This document shows positions 26,832 to 44,023 of a stretch of DNA of 55,173 bases, piece by piece. This DNA is from a virus, in the IMG/VR virus record IMGVR_UViG_3300048837_000354, positions 1-55,173 of that record. One strand, given 5' to 3'. Under the pieces are notes generated by a model. The model had not been told where the DNA came from. It ran no database searches and saw only the letters and a list, made by a program, of their open reading frames with translations. A program made the position numbers and the translations under genes. Every line of letters starts with the position of its first letter. Within the stretch, counting starts at the first letter, position 1.

Positions 26832-28964
26832 TCAATCCTTTTTGTAGAAGTCGCTGCGGAAGCCGTGCGCCGACAGCGGGCAACCTTCGGCCCACGGGGG
26901 TACGACAGACATGCACGCTTCAAGCGCCTGGGTCGACAGAGAGTCGTCGTCGATGTCGTCTAGCGAGATGATTTCGTCGTGGACGTGCCCGATGATGTTG
27001 TAGCCGGCCTCGCGCGCCTTGAGCATGCCGTACACCAGGATATCGCGAGCAATGGCCTGCACCAGGTTCTCGATGATCTTGCCGCCGTGGGTGTCCATGC
27101 GCACCCACTTCTTCGAGGTCTGATGAACGCCCTCGTAGCTGATCTCCCACTTCTCCTGTTCGTCCCAGATCGGCTCGCCGGTCTTGTCGTCGACCGCCTG
27201 GATAAACTGGCCGTACTCGTTCTCGCGCGGGTGGCCGTGCTCGTCTATCTCCCACACCGGCCAAAGCTTCACGATCTTCTTGACCGCCGGACGGCAGTAG
27301 AACAGGTGGCGACCGGACGGAAGACGGATGCGCAGGAACGGCGGCTTGATGTCGAAGAGGAACATACCGACACGACGCGGCTCCTTGTCGCGGATGCAGT
27401 CTCGCATCGCGTTCTCAAGGTCGTACCACATCTGCTTCACTTCGGGAGAAAGGTTGCGGTAGATAGCGACCGCCTTGTGAGAAGCTTCGCGCGACAGCTT
27501 GACGCCCATGCTCTCCGCGTAGGCCCAAAGGCCCGTCTTCTTCTGGTCCGGATACTCGCCGACCAGATCGCCGCCGCCGAGACGATAGCCGCAGCCCAGC
27601 GCGGCGGGCTTGCACTCGTTGCGCTCGTCCTTGGTGATCTCGTCATATGGCTTGACCAGGTAGTGAACGCCGAACGCCTTGTACGGATCGAGCTTCTTCT
27701 CCAACACGTCAAGCCAGAACTTGCACCCGGTGATCCACGCAATCACGCACAGTTCGATAGCCGAGAGGTCGCAGACGTTCAAGACCTTGCCGGCCGGCGC
27801 GATGAACGCGGAGCGGATCGACGACACGAGCACGTCTAGCACGTTGCCGAACAGGAACTCCAACGTCTCGAAGTCCCGGTCGCGGATCAACTGCCGCACG
27901 TAGCCCAGGTGCGGCTCCACGCGCTTCACGGGGCGCGGGAGATTCTGCAACTGCACAACCCGGCCCGCCCAGCGTCCAGTGCGCCCAGCGCCGCAGAACT
28001 GCATCGTGTAGCGCAGGATGCCGTCGTCCGCGACAGCACGCAGCATGGCGTCGAACTTCTTGAGGCTGGTCTTCGTCGACGCGGTGCGCAGCGCGAGGAA
28101 GTCCTTGGCCTCCTTGGTGATCTTGTCGCCGAAGTCAGCGAGCGCCAGCTTCACGCGGTCCTTGCGCAGGCTCTCGAACGGGTAGCCGCGCGCTGCAAGC
28201 CACGGTTGTGCCTGCTGCGTTGAGTTCGGATTCTTGAGACCGGAAACCTTGATCATCTCGGCCTTGAACATCGCGGCCCACTGCTTCGCCATTGCGATAG
28301 CGCCGTGAACCAACTCAAGGTCTACCGGATAGCCTTCGTCGTTGATGTCCTGATCGAACGCCCAAAGCTCGAACACTTCACCGAAGTTCGGAAAGAACTG
28401 CCGCAGCACGCGGAACACCTTGTCTTCGGCGACCACGTCCTGTCGGCCGTAGCCGCAGAACTCGGCCCACTCCGCCGGGTGGCTATCCCAGTCGTTGAAC
28501 TCGCGCGGATTCTTCGCGGTGACGTGGTTCTTCGGTCGAGGCTTGCAGAAGAGATTGATCAGCGCCTTGCCGCGCGGGTCCTTCTGGTAGTCCTTGTGCA
28601 GGCGCAGTGCATCGCGCGTCAACTGGTCCAGGTTGCCAGGCAAAGCCAGCGAGAAGGCCATCGCCATTGTGCAGATGAAACGCGACGCCGGAAGATCAAT
28701 CTTTAGCACGTGCTTGAGAATCAGACGCTCGAACGCCGCGTTGTGCGCGACAATCTTTATGTTGGGGTCGAGCAGCCACGCGCGCAGCTTCGCCGGCATG
28801 TCCGGGCGAAGGTGCGGATACCAGACCAGCGGTTCACCGTCGTCGAGCTTGACCCAGAGCATCAACACGCGCGTCGATGGGTCGCGCGCATACACGTCGA
28901 CGCCACACATTTTCAGGTCGACCTTGGACCGCGTCTCGAAGTCGGTGTGCAGGAGTTGAGTCAC
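26832..28964 (-). CDS. Family A DNA polymerase with 3'-5' exonuclease
   Basis: 710 residues from GTG at 28962-28964. Exonuclease: HTDFETRS (Asp8, Glu10), VAHNAAFE (about 73-79) and CGYGRQDVVAE (near 180). Polymerase: motif A NVCDLSAIELCVIAWITG, motif B around KDERNECKPAALGCGYRLGG, and motif C NIIGHVHDEII near 660. No 5'-3' exonuclease domain. It should be the phage replicase. The start overlaps, as GTGA, the stop of the alternate methyltransferase frame at 28961, which supports that frame as the true gene end. Confidence 0.95.
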   Translation of the reverse strand: MTQLLHTDFETRSKVDLKMCGVDVYARDPSTRVLMLWVKLDDGEPLVWYPHLRPDMPAKLRAWLLDPNIKIVAHNAAFERLILKHVLKIDLPASRFICTMAMAFSLALPGNLDQLTRDALRLHKDYQKDPRGKALINLFCKPRPKNHVTAKNPREFNDWDSHPAEWAEFCGYGRQDVVAEDKVFRVLRQFFPNFGEVFELWAFDQDINDEGYPVDLELVHGAIAMAKQWAAMFKAEMIKVSGLKNPNSTQQAQPWLAARGYPFESLRKDRVKLALADFGDKITKEAKDFLALRTASTKTSLKKFDAMLRAVADDGILRYTMQFCGAGRTGRWAGRVVQLQNLPRPVKRVEPHLGYVRQLIRDRDFETLEFLFGNVLDVLVSSIRSAFIAPAGKVLNVCDLSAIELCVIAWITGCKFWLDVLEKKLDPYKAFGVHYLVKPYDEITKDERNECKPAALGCGYRLGGGDLVGEYPDQKKTGLWAYAESMGVKLSREASHKAVAIYRNLSPEVKQMWYDLENAMRDCIRDKEPRRVGMFLFDIKPPFLRIRLPSGRHLFYCRPAVKKIVKLWPVWEIDEHGHPRENEYGQFIQAVDDKTGEPIWDEQEKWEISYEGVHQTSKKWVRMDTHGGKIIENLVQAIARDILVYGMLKAREAGYNIIGHVHDEIISLDDIDDDSLSTQALEACMSVVPPWAEGCPLSAHGFRSDFYKKD

Positions 28965-29281
28965 GGGCGTACGTCCATCCAGGCTTTGATCACTTCGGCG
29001 AAGAGCGGCGGGACGATGGCATTACCGTAGGCGCGCAGTCTTCCCACTCGGGAGGGAACCCCATCAGCCAGCAGACGAACTCCGAGGCCAACGCGCCGGG
29101 CTTTTCCGTCGTGGCCGAGAATCCAGCGGGAGTCATCCCACATTCCGCGAGCAATTCCGGAACCGTGACTATCTGCGTCGCCAATGTCCACTGGCCGCGC
29201 GGATGCAGCCTCTCCGCTTCTTTCACTTGTGCCGCTACGCTCGCTGCACTCACCGACGCATTGTGAGTCGGAGTCGCCCAA
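28961..29281 (-). pseudogene. Displaced C-terminal part of the cytosine methyltransferase (motif X frame)
   Basis: This frame has no convincing ribosome site but carries the conserved C-terminal end of a phage cytosine methyltransferase: DDSRWILGHDGKARRVGLG, then LLADGVPSRVGRLRAYGNA and IVPPLFAEVIKAWM. Motif X (GNAIVP) helps form the AdoMet pocket. Its stop overlaps the polymerase start by GTGA, the junction style used across this genome. It is joined to the N-terminal part if one GA unit is removed at 29333-29342. Confidence 0.75.
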
Positions 29282-29901
29282 AGTGCCGCGTAGACCTGTC
29301 GCGGCAACTGATCCACTCTGGTCCGCCCTGCTTCTCTCTCTCCCGAGACATGCCCGGCGTGTCTTTGTAGTCCCGCGCCGACGCCGTCACCCACAACGCA
29401 CTTTCCAGCGGCGAAGGCGATGCGGTCGCGACGGTGAGGCGCGTTGACGGCACAAGCTGGTAGTACGGCCGACCCGCAGGCGTAGCCGATGCCTTCCAGG
29501 TCAGCAAACACTCGATCGAGCCAATTTTTTCTAATCGCTGCTGCAACCTGCTCTCCCATGCAAACGGCGGGTCGGCAAGCGGCGATAAGGCGGAAGTAGT
29601 GTGGCCATAGGTCCCGTTCGTCGTCGGTGCCGAGTTGCTTGCCAGCGACGCTATACGGCTGGCACGGCGCACTGCCCGTCCAGAGTTCGCGACCATCGGG
29701 CCAGCCGGCGAGACGTGCAGCAAGACTCCACCCAGCAATGCCAGCGAAGAAGTGGCACTGTGTGAAGAACTCAAGGTCTTCTGGTTGAACTTCCGTGATG
29801 CTGCGTTCATCCACTTCTCCGTCAGGAATGTGACCGGCTTTGATCAAGTTGCGAATCCACTGCGCGGCGTACGGCTCAAATTCGTTGTAGTAGTTCGACA
29901 T
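28990..29901 (-). CDS. C5-cytosine DNA methyltransferase, frame broken near residue 190
   Basis: 303 residues as it stands; the ATG (29899-29901) has GAGG 7 bases upstream. Motif I FFAGIAGWSLAARLAGW, motif IV with the catalytic Cys GSAPCQPYS, motif VI GEQV (usually ENV) and motif VIII HRRDRIAFA are present. The chain then changes character after RHAGHVSGEREAGRT and ends MPSSRRSSPK without motif X. Motif X (LRAYGNAIVP) is encoded just downstream in another frame ending at 28961. The frame switch coincides with a (GA)5 tract; with one unit fewer, a 312-residue enzyme with all motifs would result. As read, the enzyme is probably inactive. The role would be to modify phage DNA against restriction. 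Confidence 0.85.
   Translation of the reverse strand: MSNYYNEFEPYAAQWIRNLIKAGHIPDGEVDERSITEVQPEDLEFFTQCHFFAGIAGWSLAARLAGWPDGRELWTGSAPCQPYSVAGKQLGTDDERDLWPHYFRLIAACRPAVCMGEQVAAAIRKNWLDRVFADLEGIGYACGSAVLPACAVNAPHRRDRIAFAAGKCVVGDGVGAGLQRHAGHVSGEREAGRTRVDQLPRQVYAALWATPTHNASVSAASVAAQVKEAERLHPRGQWTLATQIVTVPELLAECGMTPAGFSATTEKPGALASEFVCWLMGFPPEWEDCAPTVMPSSRRSSPK
29250..29810 (-). CDS. Overprinted ORF inside the methyltransferase gene (truncated by the same shift)
   Basis: 186 residues in a second frame of the methyltransferase gene. The ATG (29808-29810) has GGAG 6 bases upstream, a good ribosome site. The sequence has order rather than shadow-like randomness: LLGGVLLHVSPAGPMVANSG, ESRLQQRLEKIGSIECLLTW, KASATPAGRPYYQLVPSTR, ARDYKDTPGMSRERE. 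From memory these motifs recur in a phage protein of unknown function that accompanies Dcm-type enzymes and normally continues into RVDQLPRQV...WLMGFPPEWEDCAPTVM, which here sits in the methyltransferase frame. Deleting one GA unit at 29333-29342 would give an uninterrupted 272-residue protein ending at 28990. Confidence 0.6.
   Translation of the reverse strand: MNAASRKFNQKTLSSSHSATSSLALLGGVLLHVSPAGPMVANSGRAVRRASRIASLASNSAPTTNGTYGHTTSALSPLADPPFAWESRLQQRLEKIGSIECLLTWKASATPAGRPYYQLVPSTRLTVATASPSPLESALWVTASARDYKDTPGMSREREKQGGPEWISCRDRSTRHFGRLRLTMRR
29333..29342 (-). repeat. (GA)5 dinucleotide tract at the frame switch
   Basis: On the plus strand this is (TC)5. Both overlapping frames change identity exactly here. 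Going from five to four units shifts both in the restoring direction, so the tract is either a slippage hot spot, a phase-variation switch, or a sequencing/assembly error. Confidence 0.85.
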
Positions 29902-33203: not shown

Positions 33204-35762
33204 ATGTCGCAAGAAGATTTCACCCCACGGGCGCTTGCCCTCGTAGCCAACGGCTACCGCATCATTCCGCTCAACGGGAAAGTCCCCAACGCCGGCAAAG
33301 ACTGGCAAGACATCGTCGCTACTGACGCGACGGTGCATGCGTGGGGTCGCGCCATGCCGCACGCCAACATCGGCATCCTCACCGAACTCACGCCCGCCGT
33401 CGACATCGACATCTACGACGCCGCCGTAGCGGAGCGCATGGAGGCGTGGATCGTCGCCAACGTCGAAGGCGCGGCTCTCGCACCACGACGTGTCGGCCAA
33501 GCGCCCAAGCGCCTGCTGCTCTTCCGCGCAGACGAGAATTTCCGCAAGGTGGACGCAGGCGTGTTCGTCGACCCCCAGGGTGTGAAGCACAAGGTCGAAA
33601 TCCTGTCCAAGGGGCAGCAGTTCGCCGCGTTCGGCATCCACCCGGATACGAAGCAGCCGTTCCGCTGGACCTCGATGGAAGACCCGCTCGATCTCCCGTT
33701 CGACGAACTGCCGGTCCTGACCGTCGAAGACGCGCAGCGCATCGCCGAACAGTTCCGCGCGATCTGCGAAGAACTCGGATGGAAGCGCAAGGGCAAGTCG
33801 ACCAGTGTTGCGTTGTCGCGCCCCGCGCAAGGCGAGGTCAACGGTCTTGAAGGTCACAAGCGCAAGCTCAAGACCACGACCGAGGAAATCCGCGACGCGC
33901 TGAACGTGCTCGATCCCGACACCGGCTACGACTTCTGGCGCGAAGTCGGCATGGCGCTGCATCACCAGTTCGACGGCAGCGACGAGGGCCTTGAGTTGTG
34001 GGACGAGTGGAGCCAGTCGTCGATCAGCTACAGCAACGACGAGATCGTTGAGAAGTGGCCCTCGTTCTCGATCACGCCGGACGGCCGCGCGCCGGTCACG
34101 CTGGCGACGGTCTTCAAGTACGCCAACGACGCGAAGCACCAAGAAGCCGAGGAAGACTTCGAGCGTGTGCTCAATGTCGTGCGCACGTGTACGGACCAGA
34201 GCCAGTTGTTCAAGGACGTGGCGAAGCAGGTAGCCAAGGCGATCACGCAAGAATTCCAGTTCGACGTGGCTGCGAAGAAAATGCAGGACCGCGCGAAAGA
34301 ACTGACCGGCGTGTCGCCGCGCATCGACACCGTGCGCAAGGCCATCTTCAACTACCGCACGCGCGCCGAAGAGACTGGCAACCGCACCCCCGATTGGTGC
34401 GTGGACTGGGTCTACATCGAGAACGGCGACCGCTTTTTCAGCCTGGAGTCGAAGCAGGAACTCACTGAAAAGGGTTTCAACGCCAAGTTCGACCGCTTCG
34501 TGATCTCCGACGAAGACCGCGCCCTCGGCGTGGCATCGCCCGACGCGCACGCGGCGCAGAAGGCCCTCAACGTCTACACCATCCCCACCGTCTACTCGAC
34601 CGTCTACCTGCCGGGCCATCCGCGCATCGTGGAGGTTCTGGGCCGCACGCGGGCGAACACCTACGACGAGACCTCGATTCCCGAGAGCAAGCCCGTGGAG
34701 ACTGACGAAGAGCACGAGGCCGTCCGCCTGGTGCAGCAGCACTTCGAGATCACGTTCCCCGACAAGCGGGAGCGGACTATCGTGATGGACTACCTCGCCT
34801 ACAACATCCAGTTCCCCACCGAGAAGATCGCGTGGGCGCTGTTGATCCAGGGCGCGGAAGGCACCGGCAAGACGTGGATTCTCAAGTTCATGCAGATGAT
34901 GCTCGGCCCGCAGAACGTGTCGCCGCTGTCAGCCGCCGCGCTGCAGGAGCCCACCAACAACGCGTGGGCCGAAGGCGCGAAGATGCTCTTCATCGAGGAA
35001 ATCCGCCTGCACGGCTCGAATCGCTACGAAGTGCTCGACAAGCTCAAAGAGCCGGTGTCGAACGAAGACATCACCATCCGCCGCATGAACCGTGACCGCT
35101 ACACGATCCCCAACGTGACCAACTACGGCGCGTTCACGAACTACTGGGACGCACTGCCGGTCTCGAAGAACAACCGGCGCTACTTCGTCGTTGCAACCCA
35201 ACTGCAGAGCGAGGAAGACGTGATTGCGTTCAACGAACGCTACCCGGACTACTTCACCGACCTGTTCAACGCGATCTACGCACACCCGGCCGCGCTGCGT
35301 GGCTGGATGATGGCGCGCAAGCTGTCGCACTGGTTTGAGCCGAAGAAGCCGGCCCCGGACACCGTCGCCCGCGCGAAGATGGCCGACATGTCGGAAGTGT
35401 CCGAAGAGAACGACGTGCTCACGACGCTGTTGGAGGATTCCACGTCCCCCCTGGTGTGCGACCAGTTGCTCTCGCTCGACGCGCTGGAAGACGCGGCCAA
35501 CAGTGCCGGCGAGATGCTGCCGAAGGGACGCCCGCTGCTGGTGATGCTTGCCAAGGCCGGCTTCCACATGATCGGCCGGATGTCGCTGCAGGAAGGCGGA
35601 CGGAAGACGCGCGTGTTCACGCGCAAGCCCGGCCTATTCGACATGGGCGACACCGACAAGCGGGTTGTCCAGGTGCGACAACTGGTCGCCGGGCACGCGC
35701 TCACGAAGAAGCCGCTGCACCTGGGCTTCGACAAGATCGAGGATGAAGACGAATGGAACTGA
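33204..35762 (+). CDS. Bifunctional Prim-Pol / superfamily III helicase (DUF5906-like)
   Basis: 852 residues. N-terminal Prim-Pol domain (about 1-220): RALALVANGYRIIPLNGK, catalytic acidic triplet in AVDIDIYD (about 65-71), and a GIHPDTKQPFRW motif. A PriCT-2-like linker lies at 230-290 (DYDFWREVGMALHHQFDG region). The C-terminal helicase has Walker A GAEGTGKTW (about 550-558), Walker B MLFIEEI, sensor region ITIRRMNRDRYTIPN and arginine finger in VSKNNRRYFVV. It should prime and unwind at the origin and partner the family A polymerase. The stop overlaps the next gene. Confidence 0.93.
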   Translation: MSQEDFTPRALALVANGYRIIPLNGKVPNAGKDWQDIVATDATVHAWGRAMPHANIGILTELTPAVDIDIYDAAVAERMEAWIVANVEGAALAPRRVGQAPKRLLLFRADENFRKVDAGVFVDPQGVKHKVEILSKGQQFAAFGIHPDTKQPFRWTSMEDPLDLPFDELPVLTVEDAQRIAEQFRAICEELGWKRKGKSTSVALSRPAQGEVNGLEGHKRKLKTTTEEIRDALNVLDPDTGYDFWREVGMALHHQFDGSDEGLELWDEWSQSSISYSNDEIVEKWPSFSITPDGRAPVTLATVFKYANDAKHQEAEEDFERVLNVVRTCTDQSQLFKDVAKQVAKAITQEFQFDVAAKKMQDRAKELTGVSPRIDTVRKAIFNYRTRAEETGNRTPDWCVDWVYIENGDRFFSLESKQELTEKGFNAKFDRFVISDEDRALGVASPDAHAAQKALNVYTIPTVYSTVYLPGHPRIVEVLGRTRANTYDETSIPESKPVETDEEHEAVRLVQQHFEITFPDKRERTIVMDYLAYNIQFPTEKIAWALLIQGAEGTGKTWILKFMQMMLGPQNVSPLSAAALQEPTNNAWAEGAKMLFIEEIRLHGSNRYEVLDKLKEPVSNEDITIRRMNRDRYTIPNVTNYGAFTNYWDALPVSKNNRRYFVVATQLQSEEDVIAFNERYPDYFTDLFNAIYAHPAALRGWMMARKLSHWFEPKKPAPDTVARAKMADMSEVSEENDVLTTLLEDSTSPLVCDQLLSLDALEDAANSAGEMLPKGRPLLVMLAKAGFHMIGRMSLQEGGRKTRVFTRKPGLFDMGDTDKRVVQVRQLVAGHALTKKPLHLGFDKIEDEDEWN

Positions 35763-36301
35763 CCAAGGTAGGTCCCGGCCACTTCTACGCGGGTGTTGGT
35801 TCGCGCGAGACGCCGGAAGACGTGCGGCGGCTGATGACGAAGATCGCGCGCTCGCTGGCGGAAGCCGGATGGCTCCTGCGCTCCGGCGGTCAGCCGAAGG
35901 GTGCAGACTCCGCGTTCGAGGAAGGGGCTTACACGCTCAGCGGACCGTTCAAGCTCACTAGCACCACGAAAGAAATCTGGTTGCCGTGGCTGGGCGCTTT
36001 CGGTCACACGTCGCAACTGACGCCGACGAAAGAGCACTACGAAGCCGCAGCGCACTACCACCCGAACTGGAACGCGTGCGACAAGTACGCGCGTGATCTG
36101 CACGCCCGCAACGCGCCCGTCGTTCTCGGCGCTGATCTACGCACGCCGGTCAAGTTCGTCGTGTGCTGGACGAAGGACGGTCTAGGCGGTGGTGGCACCG
36201 GCCAGGCGATCCGCATCGCCCGCGCCAACAAGATTCCCGTCTACGATCTCGCGATCCCCGGCACCGGGAAGCTGCTCAAGGCTTTCGTGTCGTCGTCGTG
36301 A
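35753..36301 (+). CDS. SLOG/DprA-like Rossmann-fold protein
   Basis: 182 residues. The Rossmann pattern is clear: FYAGVGSRETPEDV, LLRSGGQPKGADSAFEEGA (the SGG..GAD nucleotide-binding loop of SLOG domains), KFVVCWTKDG, GGGTGQAIRIARANKIPVYD. SLOG domains bind nucleotide-derived ligands and include DprA and the sensor domains of several defence systems. In phages a single-domain version of this length is recurrent but uncharacterised. It starts 10 bases inside the primase gene, so is tightly coupled to replication. It could act as a recombination mediator or as a sponge for signalling nucleotides; both are inference. Confidence 0.8.
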   Translation: MELTKVGPGHFYAGVGSRETPEDVRRLMTKIARSLAEAGWLLRSGGQPKGADSAFEEGAYTLSGPFKLTSTTKEIWLPWLGAFGHTSQLTPTKEHYEAAAHYHPNWNACDKYARDLHARNAPVVLGADLRTPVKFVVCWTKDGLGGGGTGQAIRIARANKIPVYDLAIPGTGKLLKAFVSSS

Positions 36302-40111: not shown

Positions 40112-40840
40112 TTAGTCGCGGACGCGGATGCGGGCCGCGCCTTGCGTGATGAACTTTCGATTGTTGGCGCGCGAAGGCTTGCCATTGCGCCATGCCGTGA
40201 CCAGGCCGAAGCGTGAGGCAAGTTCGTGTGCCATGTCTTCGCCATATTCGGCCGCGATGCTTTCGGGCGTGTCGTTATCCGAGTAGCAAACCCCGCCAAG
40301 GTATTCCGCTTCCCCGTCTACCGTCTCCCCGTCCACGTCGCACAATTCAACCTTGAGGCAGTGATAGGCCCATTCATCGCGAACCCAGCCGCGCACGTGC
40401 TCGAAGTCCAGGCGGGCCGCTTCGGCCGCAATCTCGCCTTTCGTGGGCTCCCGCATGAATTCGGAAACCGGGCGCGGAATGAACTTGCCTCCGGCATTGT
40501 TGCGCGTGCGCGCGTCCAAGAACATCGCCTTTTCTGCGATACGCTCCCGCAGTGCGGCTAGTTTGTCATCCGACAAACCCCATTCCGCGCGCGCGGTCTT
40601 CGTCGCGGCCTGAACGTCATACGCGTAGATCGTCGCGTAGCGTTCACCGCTTGAAAAGGCAATCTCCCCCGGACCTTTGCCCATGTTGCGATAGTGCCCG
40701 TTGCTTGAGTAGCCCGCGCGGCAAAGTTCACGAACGGGCCCGTGCCCGTCTTCCTCTTCCCAGGGTGCCCCGTGGTCCGTGTCCTGTTCCGAAGTCAGGA
40801 GGAAGGTCAAGCCAAGATAGGTAAACGTATGGTCTTGCAT
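40112..40840 (-). CDS. Unknown protein with a substrate-like conserved C-terminus
   Basis: 242 residues from the ATG at 40838-40840, with GGAG 7 bases upstream (another ATG two codons earlier overlaps the preceding stop). N-terminal beta part (TFTYLGLTFLLTSEQDTDHG, YATIYAYDVQAATKTA) and a C-terminal part with VRDEWAYHCLKVELCDVDGE, YLGGVCYSDNDTPESIAAEY and ASRFGLVTAWRNG. The C-terminal block is, from memory, seen in several unrelated large phages and plasmids, with unknown function. Confidence 0.65.
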   Translation of the reverse strand: MQDHTFTYLGLTFLLTSEQDTDHGAPWEEEDGHGPVRELCRAGYSSNGHYRNMGKGPGEIAFSSGERYATIYAYDVQAATKTARAEWGLSDDKLAALRERIAEKAMFLDARTRNNAGGKFIPRPVSEFMREPTKGEIAAEAARLDFEHVRGWVRDEWAYHCLKVELCDVDGETVDGEAEYLGGVCYSDNDTPESIAAEYGEDMAHELASRFGLVTAWRNGKPSRANNRKFITQGAARIRVRD

Positions 40841-43823: not shown

Positions 43824-44023
43824 CACGATTACCAGGAGCGAAGGAAGGCACCCCGCGCGGCCCACGGCAGGCCGATAGCCCGACACGCGCGGACGCCCAC
43901 GGGCAACGCTTGGCCGCGACCACGGGCCGCGCCTTGAGCCTAGACGGGCACACCCCGGACGGCAGGCGCGCGCGCGTTGCGACGTGGCCGGAAACCGGAC
44001 ACATATAGGCGTGTCGCGGTGAT

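Follow-up and report, generated by a model that had tools for sequence, protein, structure and literature searches.

The small subunit of the methyltransferase M.EcoHK31I, in work attributed to Lee et al. in 1995, is said to be read from an alternative frame inside the large-subunit gene. M.EcoHK31I is a C5-methyltransferase made of two polypeptides; motifs I-VIII and X are in the large subunit, motif IX alone is in the small one, and the predicted target-recognition domain (TRD) has been placed in its alpha polypeptide (PMC3404938). Descriptions of this layout so far concern one or two bacterial enzymes; among phages, a pair of coliphage K1H has already been deposited as overlapping ORFs, and the protein family phrog_1008 already exists. 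A search of the literature, with most subscription journals outside its reach, returned no description of the phage alpha/beta overlap analysed here, and the out-of-frame HNH gene reported in 2025 within a phage methylase (PMC11855218) is a different phenomenon.

The window that was analysed is the entire IMG/VR record IMGVR_UViG_3300048837_000354, a stretch of 55,173 bases in which siphovirus-type head, tail and replication genes are present. Elsewhere in it, a gene for a DprA-like recombination mediator (phrog_768, 35753-36301) adjoins a large primase gene (33204-35762). At positions 28961-29901 of the minus strand, directly upstream of the gene for a family A DNA polymerase (26832-28964, minus strand; phrog_17, PF00476), three frames overlap. 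Frame a (28990-29901) encodes methyltransferase motifs I-VIII and then runs past a (GA)5 tract at 29333-29342 into WLMGFPPEWEDCAPT at its end, frame b starts with an ATG at 29810, and frame c (28961-29281) carries the sequence LRAYGNAIVP (29009-29038), which corresponds to motif X and lies within the phrog_363 match. The polymerase start lies within the stop at the end of frame c, the two overlapping as GTGA. All of the sequence elements on which a preliminary description of the locus was built are present, namely the three frames, the ATG at 29810 with its GGAG, motif X, the GTGA overlap and the tract, and the lengths of 312 and 272 residues that it predicted for the two rejoined proteins follow arithmetically.

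The N-terminal part of the first protein, the alpha subunit of a C5-methyltransferase with motifs I, IV, VI and VIII, lies in frame a at 29350-29901 of the minus strand (PF00145, E 4.8e-17; phrog_363, E 2.4e-62), and its C-terminal part with motif X lies in frame c at 28961-29338 (phrog_363 positions 249-315). The second protein, the putative beta subunit, begins in frame b, +1 relative to alpha, at 29328-29810 (phrog_1008, E 6.6e-13) and ends in frame a at 28990-29358 (phrog_1008 positions 256-284) with a predicted motif IX, whose core WLMGFPPEW (29044-29070) falls on a conservation peak. When profiles built from relatives were compared with the window, the alpha profile matched frame a at 29350-29901 (model positions 31-211, E 6e-101) and frame c at 28970-29338 (model positions 212-321, E 7e-26), with the break between 29350 and 29338 and the model positions 211 and 212 consecutive across it. 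The beta profile matched frame b at 29328-29810 (model positions 1-155, E 1e-42) and frame a at 28996-29358 (model positions 143-261, E 2e-25), with the break inside 29328-29358. Each profile independently placed its switch on the tract, and the PHROGs families gave the same partition, phrog_363 joining the N-terminal part of frame a to frame c and phrog_1008 joining frame b to the C-terminal part of frame a. A single insertion or deletion at the (GA)5 tract shifts the reading frame of alpha and that of beta at one position, in agreement with the proposal in the preliminary description that one event had broken both frames.

The coding status of the +1 frame was analysed in 160 loci with alpha relatives gathered from viral and bacterial contigs, together with named phages. 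Alpha was contained in a single frame in 166 of the 169 scorable loci, and motif X was likewise in one frame. After clustering of the relatives at 75% identity into 132 clusters, most of the +1 frame was open in every cluster (less than 75% identity; median 89% of alpha), including those from hosts with a GC3 of 0.40-0.55. In 86% of the clusters this frame surpassed shuffles of the synonymous codons at p<=0.05, compared with 1.5% for the +2 frame. Shuffling the synonymous codons of alpha in low-GC3 genomes left only about 70-150 open codons. Unrelated control genes from the same loci reached p<=0.05 in 4% of cases and had a median open fraction of 25%, and a frame open over at least three quarters of the length was present in 96% of the alpha genes versus 1% of the control genes.

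A pairwise resampling test placed both the +1 and the +2 frame above the shuffle null, the latter less so; such a +2 excess is expected with fixed wobble bases, and this test alone is not decisive. Because it was positive for both frames, it was replaced by a per-column synonymous analysis in which the alpha N terminus, outside the overlap, served as internal control. Where sequences shared the alpha residue, the observed/expected ratio of codon identity was 1.0-1.15 in columns 1-84, rose to 1.3-1.9 in columns 85-168 and to 2.25 at WPTPT, peaked at 2.87 at the beta motif PAHSRWLMGLPP and fell to 1.05 at the end. The synonymous sites of alpha are free of constraint over roughly the first 84 codons and strongly constrained beyond them, and the constraint stops where beta stops. 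In columns 193-204 and 241-252 the beta residues are better conserved than those of alpha; conservation at the PAHSRWLMGLPP motif is 0.81 for beta versus 0.70 for the overlapped alpha residues, and at WPTPT it is 0.57 versus 0.37. Over residues 1 to about 60 of beta the frame is open, with little constraint or conservation. A search with the beta profile retrieved 78 further loci, in 78 of which alpha overlapped beta in the same phase, and beta was never found alone. Taken together, these results indicate that the dual coding of alpha and beta is real and general across the family. The earlier suggestion that two long proteins are normally made from overlapping frames of this locus is borne out, since relatives of the 272-residue frame occur in intact pairs both in the 132 divergent lineages and in the additional loci.

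The start of beta is also conserved. Among the 122 clusters having a VDERSI-like motif in alpha, there is an in-phase ATG in 115, either at site A inside VDE, which is the site of the ATG at 29810 in the window, or at site B just past RSI. Beta starts are usually accompanied by a Shine-Dalgarno-like sequence; in the window this is probably the GGAG at 29817-29820, with a 6-nt spacer to the type A start, and site B mostly has AGGAG upstream. The arginine codon AGG, which makes this AGGAG, accounts for 35% of the arginines at site B versus 9.6% at other arginines, and a Shine-Dalgarno sequence at B correlates with a missing ATG at A (Fisher p=5e-5). Because the start sites are conserved and the Shine-Dalgarno sequence at B goes together with the loss of the ATG at A, beta is likely to be expressed by internal initiation rather than by frameshifting.

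The preliminary description did not recognize that the second protein is probably the subunit of this enzyme that carries motif IX and target recognition. Columns 125-252 of beta match residues 227-352 of gp76 (E 1.3e-7), a single-frame methyltransferase of mycobacteriophage Rita, and the matching region lies between motifs VIII and X and extends through motif IX (WMMGWPAGW), to which the beta sequence LNPxxSRWLMGLPPEW is aligned. The first half of beta, a helix and a hairpin (LTWK..TP.G), has no counterpart in this fused enzyme. Alpha keeps motifs I-VIII and X and is devoid of motif IX, its Pfam match ending before the motif IX region. Sequence searches of PDB, Pfam and NCBIfam gave no relative of beta. 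Because the AlphaFold model of beta alone was poor (mean pLDDT 60, pTM 0.30) and a Foldseek search with it found no match in the PDB (best E 0.35), the fold assignment of beta is based on its sequence. The match to Rita gp76, the motif set of alpha, the division of motifs as in M.EcoHK31I and the constant presence of an overlapping alpha wherever beta was found suggest that the two proteins are subunits of one enzyme, in which beta would provide target recognition and motif IX and would be required for activity.

Two other explanations of the second frame were considered. Beta could be a genuine overprinted protein that is translated separately and is no methyltransferase subunit, such as a regulator or an anti-restriction factor, which would fit its absence from Pfam and NCBIfam, the lack of a solved relative and the unmatched first half. 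However, its second half corresponds to the part of a fused methyltransferase that contains the TRD and motif IX, alpha has no motif IX of its own, and all 78 loci found through beta were paired with alpha, and we regard this explanation as unlikely. That the second frame has no coding role and is open because the methyltransferase gene is conserved and rich in GC has a probability close to nil. It is true that +1 frames are often open in GC-rich genomes and that 14% of the clusters did not reach p<=0.05 against the shuffles, but the frame is also open at a GC3 of 0.40-0.55, the control genes were negative, the synonymous constraint peaks on beta motifs where beta is conserved above alpha, and the beta start sites are conserved; the open-frame tests, the controls, the constraint and the start sites refute this explanation at the level of the family.

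The (GA)5 tract itself raised a question about the state of the locus in the window. No other (GA)5 occurs in the contig, and the frame break coincides exactly with this one; the sole other five-unit dinucleotide tracts are the (CG)5/(GC)5 repeats at 40586-40595 and 43966-43975. The preliminary description had suggested a phase-variation switch, which would turn both subunits on and off, and the tract is the one positive point in its favor. This suggestion was not upheld, because long dinucleotide tracts in the relatives are at chance level: one of the 132 alpha genes has a tract of at least five units (0.8 expected) and eight have one of at least four (9.9 expected), so that a conserved or over-represented slippage tract, as in phase-variable genes, is absent from these relatives. 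Moreover, five units are short for slippage, and nine relatives have the homologous beta stretch (GM..DQLPRQ across the break) in one frame and free of repeats. A contig search found no other viral contig with this tract and its flanks, and hence no second one with a different tract length, and a search for near relatives of the polymerase of the window found none. We consider a switch very improbable, and a version of it in which slippage would alternate between the two-polypeptide enzyme and one chain fusing motifs I-VIII to TRD/motif IX, changing activity or specificity within the population, deserves hardly any credence. It is likewise extremely unlikely that the frame state of the window is itself functional, yielding one 303-residue chain with motifs I-VIII and TRD/motif IX like the single-frame phage enzymes. 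The 303-residue frame aligns to phrog_116 in one stretch, and fused enzymes such as Rita gp76 exist, but this chain would leave motif X behind in a separate frame, the arrangement is seen in none of the relatives examined, and both profiles break cleanly. Because the pieces on both sides of the tract are otherwise intact, the frame break is most likely an isolated event, either a mutation that arose recently or an error in the consensus or assembly, and not a switch.

Our preferred interpretation, which we hold to be highly probable, is that the locus represents a two-polypeptide cytosine-5 DNA methyltransferase made by dual coding, whose subunits would join into one enzyme that modifies the phage DNA. 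Alpha, read from the ATG at 29901, would form the domain for catalysis and cofactor binding, in which motifs I-VIII and X lie, and beta, begun inside the alpha gene at its own Shine-Dalgarno-like sequence and ATG in the +1 frame, would contribute motif IX and the region that recognizes the target. Both chains would then assemble into a single active enzyme, and the modification of the phage DNA would most likely serve as protection from host restriction. At the level of sequence comparison, the dual coding, the conservation of the start sites, the domain assignment and the strict co-occurrence of both proteins are established.

No model of Pfam or NCBIfam covers beta, and in PHROGs both phrog_363 and phrog_1008 are named "DNA methyltransferase". 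Because the E. coli RefSeq records inspected annotate alpha alone and beta has no NCBIfam or Pfam model, half of the enzyme goes unannotated. In Escherichia phage Delraymugoa, a T4-like Krischvirus (L258:1498-2337), alpha alone is annotated, and a long unannotated +1 beta frame with a CWLMGYPQQWDDC motif is present in AT-richer DNA. The Escherichia coli Ec1117 prophage (L172:2863-4032) has alpha annotated as two pseudogene fragments, beside a frameshifted MT-A70 methylase, and beta unannotated. In Pseudomonas phage PMG1 (L005:1480-2390) the alpha frame is apparently interrupted around residue 36, ahead of the greater part of beta, which is intact and is the sole annotated one of the two. Cyanophage Cy-LDV1 (L003:1480-2620) has an intact beta frame and an alpha end without the motif X sequence (LRAGDDAAQGEVEM), and its annotation also calls an ORF on the opposite strand at the locus. 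Two more distant methyltransferases (L254:1109-2900 and L255, minus strand), with ENV in motif VI and LRLLGNGVVP as motif X, contain a +1 frame of some 495 codons that resembles beta and ends in KLNPRWVETLMG.PIGW, and on this account the two-frame layout reaches beyond phrog_363.

What appears to be new in these data is how widely the dual coding occurs and how strongly it is supported, the layout appearing far more widespread than in the literature searched. An arrangement like that of M.EcoHK31I seems to be the rule for the phage and prophage cytosine methyltransferases of one large family, which ranges over coliphages, T4-like phages, Rhodobacter-group phages and Paenibacillus phages, and alpha/beta is an unusually well-supported case of a long same-strand dual-coding overlap in double-stranded DNA phages. 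Most of the TRD-like region evolves under a second frame, which makes specificity change under dual coding directly testable.

Among the known systems, M.AquI and the gp79/gp78 pair of mycobacteriophage Twister resemble the pair in the window as two-polypeptide C5 enzymes whose second chain holds motif IX, but they are tandem splits with a short overlap whose second protein carries motifs IX and X together, whereas here motif X is in the alpha frame and motif IX in the beta frame. The AquI-like annotation of Twister (L256:1306-2299) as two genes recurs in many other mycobacteriophages. Paenibacillus phage DevRi has a nested +1 pair, gp56/gp57, both annotated as cytosine methyltransferase, with a homologous beta (E 9.5e-19), but its alpha is more distant and its host is Gram-positive. 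Closer is the ORF29/ORF28 pair of Kagunavirus K1H, assigned to phrog_363 and phrog_1008, nested in the same phase and deposited as two overlapping genes; its frames are intact, and both genes were deposited merely as "DNA methyltransferase" with no mechanism proposed. No E. coli genome or plasmid match could be identified as EcoHK31I or EaeI, and M.EcoHK31I (YGGCCR) was compared by its published motif distribution, which shows the same division of motifs between the large and small subunits. As in that enzyme, the large subunit has motifs I-VIII and X, motif IX is found only in the small one, and the small one, as is said of M.EcoHK31I, is read in another frame within the large-subunit gene, an arrangement seen in the 132 clusters and the 78 beta-found loci, with both frames shifted at the tract in the window itself. 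In contrast, M.EcoHK31I belongs to a bacterial restriction-modification system and its TRD is predicted in alpha, whereas the pair of the window lies in a phage replication cluster and the conserved TRD-like stretch is in beta, the matching stretch of alpha being barely conserved.
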